NCBI GenBank assembly: GCA_031253625.1
Contig: JAIRVZ010000132.1
Span: forward strand, 1 to 64,000
Source: Dysgonamonadaceae bacterium
Lineage (GTDB): Bacteria > Bacteroidota > Bacteroidia > Bacteroidales > Azobacteroidaceae
DNA: 64,000 nt
Direction of reading: 5' to 3'
Of this stretch, positions 355 through 4,600 are shown one piece after another; position 1 is the first letter of the stretch, and the number at the start of each line of letters is the position of its first letter. Both the position numbers and the translations under genes were made by a program. A model generated the notes under the pieces. It was given only the letters and a program-made list of their open reading frames with translations. It did no database searches and was not told the origin of the DNA.

Positions 355-747
355 TTAGATATATTGAAATATAAAATAGAAGTCAGTGCCTTCTTGTTGT
401 AATTCAATACCACAATTTTTATATTTCCAAGAATCTTGCGCTACGGTTTTGAAGTATTTATTACAGATGTTCAAATATCTTTTCAAGTCCGATATATCGT
501 CCAAGAACAAATATCCAGTACTACAAATATCCTGGTTATTTATTACATAAGTTACAGTTGCATCTTTGAGCCTTATTTCCATTAGTTCCTTATCTGAATT
601 TAGAGGATCGGGAATAATGTTGATGTTGTGATGGGGAAAGTTTTTTTTGACAATTGCTTTGTCACAACCCAAAATTGAAGATGCCTGCATCATAATAATT
701 TTACATTTAGGCTTGAAAGAAGAATTAAAGTTAATTTGGTATTGCAT
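355..747 (-). CDS. Hypothetical protein, 130 aa
   Basis: I do not recognise this family. The protein has no signal peptide and no membrane segment. It is mixed in charge with several scattered cysteines (about residues 15, 28, 75, 95 and 112) and an aromatic C terminus (FYFIFQYI). The gene lies downstream of the minus-strand structured RNA candidate at 792-968, whose terminator-like hairpin separates the two, so it probably needs its own promoter in 750-790. Length and even codon use suggest a real gene, but nothing gives a role. Confidence 0.55.
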   Translation of the reverse strand: MQYQINFNSSFKPKCKIIMMQASSILGCDKAIVKKNFPHHNINIIPDPLNSDKELMEIRLKDATVTYVINNQDICSTGYLFLDDISDLKRYLNICNKYFKTVAQDSWKYKNCGIELQQEGTDFYFIFQYI

Positions 748-791
748 AATTAATGTTTCGGCTTGGCCCTACTTACAAGCCATTTTAAAGT

Positions 792-968
792 AAAAAAAGC
801 GGTAGGGCACTATCCTATCGCTACAAAGGGAGTCGAAGCCCTGGAACACGAACAGAAACAACACCCACCGCCATTTAGCGGAAGGCATTCACCTGTTTTC
901 ATCGTGTTCCTTTTTTTATTTTCGACTTTTATGTAGCACGAGAGCAGTTAAACGCTTTTTCTCAAAAT
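792..968 (-). ncRNA. Structured small RNA candidate, 6S RNA-like
   Basis: Read on the minus strand, a strong promoter (TTTG at 1001-1004, 19 bases, TACTTTTG at 974-981) predicts a start near 968. A GC-rich hairpin (arms 814-821 and 799-806, one mismatch) followed by seven U (798-792) predicts the end. Between them the transcript folds into one long interrupted hairpin: 820-825 pairs with 932-937, 831-837 with 921-927, then an asymmetric A-rich bubble (911-920 opposite 838-842), then a perfect 9-bp stem (843-851 with 902-910) and further apical pairing. Length of about 176 nt, a closing stem, a central bubble and a terminal stem are the 6S RNA layout (RNA polymerase-binding regulator). The identification is an inference from structure; an unrelated sRNA remains possible. 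Confidence 0.5.
799..821 (-). terminator. Rho-independent terminator of the small RNA
   Basis: On the minus strand the arms GCGATAGG (821-814) and CCTACCGC (806-799) form an 8-bp stem with one mismatch and a 7-base loop, followed directly by TTTTTTT (798-792). This is the classical intrinsic terminator layout and it separates the small RNA from the gene at 355-747. Confidence 0.6.
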
Positions 969-973
969 TTTTA

Positions 974-1004
974 CAAAAGTAAGCGTTTATTTGTTAAGAG
1001 CAAA
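974..1004 (-). promoter_or_regulatory. Promoter for the 792-968 small RNA
   Basis: On the minus strand the sequence is TTTG (1004-1001), 19 bases, TACTTTTG (981-974). Both boxes and the spacing match the Bacteroidota housekeeping consensus (TTTG, about 19-20 bases, TAnnTTTG). The boxes overlap the last codons and stop of the MscS-like gene (stop at 994-996). Confidence 0.65.
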
Positions 1005-1488
1005 GAGAAATCCCTTTTTGTAGAATCAGATTATTAGGATAGGCAATTTTTTCTCCGGAATCGGTTTCTAAATAAACATAAAATGCTTTTAAATCTTTTA
1101 TTGTAGCTTCTATCGGAAAGTCTTTATCGTGAATCTTTATCTTATCTCCTATTCTAAAATGCAAAGAAAAGAATATAACTATACTTGCCGTTACATTGCT
1201 GAGAATAGACCATTGCGCAAAAAAAGCGACTCCAATAACGGCAAATACGGAAGATAAAGCCAATAATAAATTTTTTGTATCAACACCCCATATACTAATC
1301 AAAATAGTGGCTATACAAAATACAATCAGTACATTGAGCGTTTTCTTTATCATTTTGGAATGACCTTTGTTATATAAATTGAGTTTGGCAACTTTATCTA
1401 TCAACTTATAGACAATATACCGGATAATGGGATATATTATAACAACAAGACCCGTACTGACAATTAATTTAATCGTTTCTTGATTCAT
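994..1488 (-). CDS. Small MscS-family mechanosensitive channel
   Basis: This 164-aa inner-membrane protein appears to be a minimal MscS-type channel that opens under membrane tension to release solutes during osmotic downshift. An N-terminal membrane helix (residues 5-30) is followed by a second hydrophobic helix (48-68) and a long Gly/Ala-rich pore-type helix (about 72-112), then the MscS beta domain with the typical motif FRIGDKIKI near residues 111-119. It lacks most of the C-terminal alpha/beta vestibule domain, so it is shorter than the roughly 280 residues of E. coli MscS. Such short forms are common in Bacteroidota. It stands alone between the small RNA and the divergently transcribed ileS. 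Confidence 0.8.
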   Translation of the reverse strand: MNQETIKLIVSTGLVVIIYPIIRYIVYKLIDKVAKLNLYNKGHSKMIKKTLNVLIVFCIATILISIWGVDTKNLLLALSSVFAVIGVAFFAQWSILSNVTASIVIFFSLHFRIGDKIKIHDKDFPIEATIKDLKAFYVYLETDSGEKIAYPNNLILQKGISLCS

Positions 1489-1614: not shown

Positions 1615-4600
1615 ATGAGTAAAAGATTCACCGAATATAACAATCTTAATTTATCGCAAGTCAATAAAGAAGTGTTGCAGCGTTGGGACAAAGAAGATGT
1701 CTTCCGCAAAAGTTTGGAAATAAGAGAAGGCGCACCGTCGTTTGTATTTTATGAAGGCCCTCCTTCCGCCAACGGGATGCCTGGCATTCACCACGTCATT
1801 GCCCGCTCTATTAAAGATATTTTCTGTCGTTACAAAACGATGAAAGGTTATCAGGTAAAACGCAAAGCCGGCTGGGACACGCACGGACTTCCTGTTGAAT
1901 TGGGTGTTGAAAAAGCACTGGGAATCACCAAAGAGGATATTGGCAAAACAATTTCTGTAGCCGAATACAATGCCGCTTGTCGCAAGGATGTAATGAAATA
2001 TACCAAAGAGTGGGAAGACCTGACTCGCAAAATGGGATATTGGGTGGATATGGACGATCCGTATATCACTTACGACAACCGATTTATCGAAACGCTTTGG
2101 TACTTACTCAAAGAACTTTACAAAAAAGGTTTACTTTATAAAGGATATACCATTCAGCCTTATTCTCCGGCCGCCGGAACAGGATTGAGTACGCACGAAT
2201 TGAATCAACCTGGTTGCTATCGTGATGTGAAAGATTTGACTTGCGTGGCAATGTTTAAGTTAATTGACAATGGAAAATTGACAATTGACAATTGTGTATC
2301 TGCATATTTCCTCGCTTGGACAACTACGCCTTGGACTTTGCCTTCAAATACAGCATTGTGTGTCGGCCCGAATATAATCTATAATTGTGTACAGACCGTT
2401 AATCCGTCTACAAACGAGCCGTGTGTTGTTATTTTGGCAAAAGACAGGGTTTCTGCATATTTCGGAGAAAAAAAGATTGAAAATTACACAATTATCAAAG
2501 AAATTTCAGGAAAAGAATTAGCAGGTGCTGAATACGAGCAATTGATTCCATTTGTAAAACCCGAAGGAAACGCTTTTCGCGTAATTACAGGTGATTTTGT
2601 TACTACCGAAGACGGTACGGGAATTGTACACATCGCTCCGACTTTTGGTGCTGATGACGACCGAGTTGCCAAACAAAACGGCATCGTACCGATGTTACTT
2701 GTCGACAAAAGCGGGAAACAAGTGCCAATGGTCGATTTGACAGGGAAATTTTATAAAATTGAAGATTTAGACTCCGATTTTGCAAAAACAAATATTCAAG
2801 AATTGTATAAAAATTTCGCAGGAAAATTTGTGAAAGACGCTTACTATACACAAATCTCGGAAAATCATTTTTCCTTAGATTTGGAAATTTGTATATGGTT
2901 ACAAGAACAGGGATTATTATTCAAGAAAGAGAAGCATACGCACAATTATCCACATTGTTGGCGTACAGATAAGCCTGTACTTTATTATCCGTTGGATAGC
3001 TGGTTTATCCGTACAACCGCCTGTCGTGAGCGAATGATTGAACTGAACAATACAATCAACTGGAAACCTCAATCAACCGGAACCGGTCGTTTTGGTAAAT
3101 GGCTCGAAAACCTGCAAGACTGGAATCTCAGCCGCAGCCGTTATTGGGGAACTCCACTCCCGATTTGGAGAACTGAAGACGGAACAGAAGAAAAATGTAT
3201 CGGTTCGGTTGCCGAATTGATGGAAGAAATCAACAAGTCGATTGCTGCCGGTTTTATGGATAAAAATCCGTTTGTTAATTTTAAAGTTGGAGAGTATTCT
3301 GCTCAAAACTATGCGGTAGAAAATATTGATTTGCACCGTCCGTATGTCGATGATATTGTGTTGATGTCGGAAAGCGGAAAACCGATGAAACGCGAATTAG
3401 ACCTTATTGACGTTTGGTTCGATTCAGGAGCGATGCCCTACGCACAAATCCATTATCCATTCGAAAATAAAGAATCGTTCGATAAAGGCGAAATATTCCC
3501 TGCTGATTTCATCGCTGAAGGAGTTGACCAAACCCGTGGATGGTTCTTCACACTCCATGCGATTGCCACTATGGTTTTCGACAGCGTTTCATTCAAAACA
3601 GTTGTTTCCAATGGTTTGGTGTTGGATAAAAATGGAAACAAAATGTCGAAACGCTTGGGTAATGCTGTCGACCCATTTGAAACGATTGAAAAATACGGTT
3701 CCGACCCGTTGCGCTGGTATATGATTACTAATGCATCGCCTTGGGATAACCTCAAATTCGATGTGGAAGGCATCGAAGAAGCCCGTCGTAAATTCTTCGG
3801 AACGCTTTATAATACTTATTCATTCTTTGCATTGTATGCCAATGTCGACGGATTCGAATACAAAGAACAAGATATTCCATTCGAAGAACGTCCTGAAATC
3901 GACCGTTGGATATTGTCATTATTAAATACATTGGTCAAAGAAGTAGACGAATTTTACTCTACTTACGAACCGACTCGTGCCGGACGCGCTATCAACGATT
4001 TCGTAAACGACAACCTGAGCAATTGGTACGTTCGCCTCAACCGTAAACGTTTCTGGGGCGGCAAAATGGATGCGGATAAACTTTCTGCTTATCAAACATT
4101 ATATACCTGTTTGGAAACAGTCGCTAAATTAATGGCTCCGATAGCACCGTTTTATGCCGATAAATTATTTTTGGATTTGACGCAGAGCGTCATTGCGAGC
4201 GGTAGCGAAGCAATCCAGGAAAATATAGGGAAAATAGATTGCTTCGTTCCTCGCAATGACGAAGCACAACATTCTGTTCACTTGTCAGATTTCCCAGCAT
4301 GCAACGAAACATTAATCAATAAAGATTTAGAAGAAAGAATGCAGATTGCACAAACTATTTCTTCTATGGTGTTGGCATTGCGTCGCAAGGTAAGTATCAA
4401 GGTTCGTCAGCCATTGTCTTCAATCATGGTTCCAGTATTTGATGCGCATCAAAAAGAGGCAATCGAGGCTGTGCAGGGACTGATTTTAAACGAAGTCAAC
4501 ATCAAGGAAATCAAATTTGTAGATAATGCCGATGGCGTTTTGGTAAAGAAAATCAAGCCGGATTTCAAGAAATTAGGTCCGCGTTACGGTAAAATAATGA

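Follow-up and report, generated by a model that had tools for sequence, protein, structure and literature searches.

What is encoded on the minus strand between the end of an MscS-like gene (994-1488, minus strand) and a 130-aa ORF (355-747, minus strand) in the window, the stretch of 64,000 nucleotides analyzed here? A sequence-only reading had seen a promoter, a strongly folding RNA and a terminator in a row on that strand and had taken them for a 6S RNA. All of these elements were recovered, in that arrangement. The promoter, of the Bacteroidota type, occupies 1004-974 (-33 box TTTG at 1004-1001, 19-nt spacer, -7 box TACTTTTG at 981-974) and is similar to the sigma-ABfr promoter reported from B. 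thetaiotaomicron (PMC7366714). Transcription would start near 967, almost at the closing stem P1 of the RNA described below. The minus strand from 968 to 792 folds at -60.6 kcal/mol (z -4.7), a stability that none of 200 shuffled sequences reached. Its 3' end holds a terminator-like hairpin, GCGAUAGG-loop-CCCUACCGC (799-821, minus strand; GCG-AUAGG / CCUA-CCGC, -8.9 kcal/mol), and then seven U at 798-792. A simple promoter/terminator scanner listed neither this promoter nor this terminator; a likely reason is that the stem contains a mismatch and that the scanner models sigma-70 promoters.

The 6S label itself was not borne out. A genome-wide search with RF00013, the model that this reading had proposed for the check, stayed empty even with the cutoff relaxed to E 10. 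No Rfam family reached its threshold in the whole window, and the low-threshold matches at the locus look like chance. The 6S-type RNA of this genome is Bacteroidales-1 (RF01693), which we take to be the Bacteroidota 6S and which lies on a different contig (C25:13501-13679, E 1.3e-29); neither its model nor RF00013 matches at the window locus. The sequence-only reading is supported in its claim of a structured, non-coding RNA that has a promoter of its own, and not supported in the 6S identity.

Two repeats were also seen in the window. At the contig end, positions 1-160 hold nested inverted repeats (AGCCGGATGTGAAACGTCCGG ... CCGGACGTTTCACATCCGGCT, and within them AAGTGGCGAAG ... CTTCGCCACTT), which look like a MITE or a repeat element that broke the assembly. 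The ileS gene is lengthened by about 30 residues (SVIASGSEAIQ...RNDEAQHSV) through an in-frame palindromic repeat (CGTCATTGCGAG ... CTCGCAATGACG) at 4186-4278. This repeat resembles palindromic elements that occur within genes of Rickettsia.

The structured core of the RNA spans 791-961 (minus strand) as a match to the whole covariance model (R1, 157 bits, with its own sequence in the model; R2, E 1.5e-19). Overall, the RNA combines a closing stem and a long rod with interruptions, and a pseudoknot links it to the loop of a hairpin located downstream. In stem P1, the 5' strand AAAAAGCG (953-960, minus strand) pairs with CGCUUUUU (801-794). Within P1 the rod starts with P2 (GCUACA, 932-937, minus strand, paired with 825-820) and P3 (GUCGAA, 921-926, minus strand, paired with 837-832), in which both sides changed at 8/8 and 7/7 pairs, respectively. 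The upper rod (843-910, minus strand) comprises P4a (910-903/850-843), P4b (897-893/855-851) and the apical hairpin P5 (889-878/871-860). Just 5' of the 3' half of P1, the pseudoknot strand GCCCUAC (802-808, minus strand) faces its partner GUAGGGC (772-766), which lies in the loop of hairpin P6 (GGCUUG/CAAGCC, 760-781, minus strand) and ends 18 nt before the ATG. The functional RNA goes beyond the U tract and reaches the hairpin and pseudoknot at 781-760. The terminator-like hairpin is in competition with both P1 and the pseudoknot. The arrangement of P6 and pseudoknot is identical in two plasmid copies (L038 and L039).

The sequence-only reading had made the structure depend on covariation in homologues, and hundreds of compensatory changes were found in the closing stem, the rod and the pseudoknot. 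Among 68 sequences, 88.4% of the cells were paired and 44 of the 47 pairs had changes on both sides, with a covariation score of 0.619, against 0.209 for shuffled and 0.06-0.10 for slid alignments. A MAFFT alignment of 20 closer members with their flanks, which is independent of the model structure, gave 93% pairing and a score of 0.394 versus 0.165, and a third alignment gave 0.533 versus 0.201. Stems that differ in a compensatory manner between the window and the plasmids include GCUACA/UGUAGC, GCAGAAC/GUUCUGC and GCAAGCG/CGCUUGC. The pseudoknot strands change together as well, from GCCCUAC/GUAGGGC in the window to CAGUUCC/GGGACUG, AAGCCCA/UGGGCUU, UUGUCC/GGACAA and others elsewhere; over 141 copies their mean pairing score was 13.5, compared with 11.6 +/- 0.2 when partners were swapped. 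Among the mismatches at well-supported pairs, G-U combinations far outnumbered A-C combinations (115 versus 26 in alignment A5, 38 versus 10 in A7, 45 versus 6 in A11; A5 and A11 are fitted to the model structure, and A11 includes a few weak antisense matches). This bias indicates selection on the RNA of the minus strand rather than on a DNA palindrome. A covarying secondary structure is therefore present on the coding strand.

We examined how widely this RNA is distributed. A raw DNA search of 60 relatives returned the window locus itself as the only full-length match, and PLSDB yielded five matches, 71-74% identical over 77-78%, on plasmids of Bacteroides and Parabacteroides. With a covariance model built from three sequences, 69 of 393 Bacteroidales genomes gave matches. 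A second model, built from 68 sequences, found them in 64 of 396 genomes across the phylum, in several classes of Bacteroidota, with seven candidates scored per genome. As the raw search missed relatives that the covariance models found, the sequence diverges faster than the structure. The source genome has at least 18 copies, and counts elsewhere, which are lower bounds with uncertainty at the low-scoring end, were 14 in B. xylanisolvens XB1A, 23 in B. congonensis, 15 in B. oleiciplenus, 6 in B. cutis and at least 75 in a 2.8-Mb relative of the same family (G013), where 75 of 76 scored candidates matched. No exact pattern match was obtained in viral contigs, nor was the RNA found in phage records. 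Screening of the window and of 52 loci against Rfam 15 gave nothing convincing over the RNA itself, with the cutoff relaxed to E 0.1 in 40 of the loci; low-threshold matches to SNORA81 and the HAV pseudoknot were set aside as chance in AT-rich sequence. Searches of the open literature returned no description of it. Judged from these searches, in which the covariance models were run on Bacteroidota genomes, the RNA is a large family outside Rfam 15, widespread in Bacteroidota and often present in at least 10 copies per genome. Tandem copies were seen at L149 (three pattern matches 658 nt apart), L112, L103, L259, L276 and G000:C33:26669-27076; in several cases each copy is followed by a related gene of its own, as would result from a duplication of the gene.

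The copies hold a regular position relative to genes. With start codons called mechanically as ATG ORFs and not taken from annotated genes, for 118 of 131 copies the next 400 nt downstream contained the start of an ORF on the same strand, in 60 cases at +40 to +69, and the typical distance was 40-70 nt. Divergent ORFs lay upstream of only 43 of 128 copies. From the end of the 3' pseudoknot strand to the ATG the median distance was 25 nt (10-29 nt in 39 of 61 copies; 18 nt in the window), which places the pseudoknot near the start codon without covering it. The location just upstream of same-strand genes is consistent, with exceptions in Bacteroides.

The downstream genes share no common function or pathway, which offers no pointer to a ligand, and many encode secreted proteins. 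They include genes for DUF2582 winged-helix proteins, SusC/TonB receptors, RibD_C, WG repeats, DUF1266, response regulators, SUKH-3, VWA, C10 peptidases, BACON and many lipoproteins. In the source genome, three copies precede large secreted proteins that are probably RHS-like, as judged from their sequences. In G013, a single expanded family of secreted proteins, whose members start with MKK...AQVAIGGDG...AVLDLS...GLMVYN, is encoded downstream of most of the copies sampled. The small DUF2582 winged-helix proteins, on plasmids and in Bacteroides, are often paired behind the RNA (L038, L041, L168, L140, L115, L124). The 130-aa protein of the window (747-355), the product of the putatively regulated gene, belongs to no Pfam or NCBIfam family, and its distant relatives in Bacteroidales are of similar length (about 130 aa). 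Its AlphaFold model has a pLDDT of 85, and a PDB fold search gave no significant match. A tie between the RNA and this protein family was rejected, since the protein relatives tested have no RNA nearby, and a toxin-antitoxin pair was dropped because the downstream genes differ everywhere.

Not all members are built alike. One branch, made up of the window copy, the plasmid copies and several chromosomal copies of Bacteroides, conserves the terminator hairpin (GCGGAUAGG-loop-CCCUUCCGC-U7). Its leader-type members (window, plasmids and L082) keep P6 and the pseudoknot. Four Bacteroides copies (L142, L159, L173, L227) have no near ORF downstream and have lost the P6/pseudoknot partner, suggesting that some members act alone; at L142 the RNA is directed at a convergent gene. 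Over the whole family, a strong U-tract hairpin was found in only 24 of 143 copies, being rare outside this branch, and the idea that all copies terminate at a U tract was given up since most of them have no such hairpin.

Many copies of the main branches are preceded, about 20-50 nt upstream of the rod, by a mini-ORF that is one to five codons long, starts with ATG or GTG, varies in its codons and ends in an in-frame stop. Such a stop lay within five codons of 112 of 154 upstream ATGs; the other two frames gave 33 and 54, and shuffled sequences 38.5%. Replacement of ATG by GTG and in-frame extensions were also seen. The mini-ORF is missing ahead of the window copy and its plasmid relatives. 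Examples such as ATGACATAA, ATGATATAA, GTGATATAA and ATGATAGAAAAATAA lie upstream of the RNA in L104, L116, L121, L257-L276 and others, and the mini-ORF overlaps a GACATA-like motif.

We favor, with a probability of roughly 70%, the view that the window RNA belongs to a large family of cis-acting, pseudoknotted 5' leaders that gate translation initiation. The structure covaries and is strand specific, it occurs in many copies, and it is placed before start codons. The transcript would start at the 1004-974 promoter and fold into P1 enclosing the rod P2-P5, and the strand 5' of the P1 3' half would pair with the P6 loop, so that the pseudoknot ends shortly before the ATG of the 747-355 ORF. By forming or melting near the site of ribosome entry, P1, the pseudoknot and P6 would set the rate of translation start downstream. 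The signal may be a metabolite, an ion or a protein that binds to conserved internal loops within the rod. In the window branch, the terminator hairpin and its U tract would compete with P1 and the pseudoknot and so add attenuation: part of the transcripts should stop as a stable species of about 175 nt, and the others should read through.

It may instead be that the RNA is a trans-acting small RNA that ends at 792, with the ORF as a bystander and gene proximity reflecting shared promoters. The terminator hairpin and U7 retained in the window branch would fit this proposal, as would the four Bacteroides copies without an ORF just downstream and the precedent of multicopy small RNAs in that genus (FopS, PMC11697453). 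We nevertheless consider it unlikely, given the scarcity of strong U-tract hairpins in the family, a pseudoknot partner downstream of the U tract that changes in concert with the core, the tight spacing to the ATG and the lack of a conserved single-stranded seed.

The mini-ORFs point to a further possibility, which we regard as quite improbable, namely that the RNA could be a bacterial device for ribosome shunting or for termination and reinitiation, or a structure for ribosome entry of the IRES type. With the mini-ORF before the rod and the true start codon just past the pseudoknot, the layout is that of the ribosome shunts of plant pararetroviruses, and Bacteroidota make little use of Shine-Dalgarno pairing.

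An element acting at the DNA level, such as an attC-like cassette site, a rAID-type intergenic motif or a MITE, whose palindrome would matter as DNA, might account for the many copies per genome, the plasmid copies, the several copies near contig ends and the unrelated neighbor genes, some of which are immunity-like. rAID systems with conserved intergenic motifs have been described (PMC12247911). We rate this as very improbable: G-U pairs in the helices far exceed A-C, the pseudoknot covaries, a promoter lies upstream, and the copies keep a constant orientation and spacing relative to the following start codon. Copies within a genome differ in their stems yet keep the pairing, which does not fit recent transposition. 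The copies are mostly dispersed; an integron attC or rAID cassette site would call for a cassette array and a recombinase. Finally, a second, diverged 6S RNA working on RNA polymerase would share the long interrupted hairpin of similar length and the promoter of its own, but it is barely credible on the searches reported above, being already refuted as far as models go by the absence of an RF00013 match at E 10, with Bacteroidales-1 encoded at another locus, 18 copies in the genome, a pseudoknot and a leader position.

If the cis-acting leader reading is correct, dozens of secreted, surface, sensory and defense-like genes would be under one RNA-level signal, and the RNA preceding the secreted family of G013 may coordinate surface variation. 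At about 220 nt, with strong covariation, a presence in gut Bacteroides, in other classes and on plasmids, and copy numbers from 10 to over 75 in certain genomes, this RNA would count among the uncatalogued RNA families of highest abundance in Bacteroidota. It would also allow a direct test of how translation starts in this phylum.

We compared the putative leader RNA with known systems. Like 6S RNA (RF00013) and Bacteroidales-1 (RF01693), it has a long interrupted hairpin of about 175 nt and its own promoter; unlike them, it is multicopy, pseudoknotted and located before ORFs. In preQ1 and SAM-II leaders, a pseudoknot closes shortly before the start codon. The H-type pseudoknot of the window RNA is similarly placed, whereas the RNA is several times larger than these riboswitches (preQ1 classes are reviewed in PMC11625349), contains a covarying rod, is unrelated in sequence and precedes genes without a common pathway. 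Owing to its much larger size and the absence of a shared gene pathway, we did not file it as a riboswitch. The DUF805 RNA (RF03081) is likewise a cis-regulatory motif, of Rfam, but it is a separate 68-nt motif without a match to the leader RNA. Two DUF805 motifs occur at L107 (6204-6269 and 7168-7236), the first of them between a leader RNA copy and the ORF, i.e., as two leader RNAs in tandem. Flavo-1 (RF01705), an RNA of no known function with many copies in Flavobacteriaceae (PMC9723704), is likewise multicopy; its model had no match in 20 leader RNA loci at E 0.1. The FopS/GibS family of small RNAs (PMC11697453) is also multicopy, occurs in the same genera and uses sigma-ABfr promoters. 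FopS has a single-stranded 5' stretch followed by a terminator hairpin and acts in trans on susC mRNAs. The leader RNA does not show this succession of a conserved single-stranded 5' seed and a terminator hairpin, and it is instead a covarying rod with a pseudoknot that would act mostly in cis.
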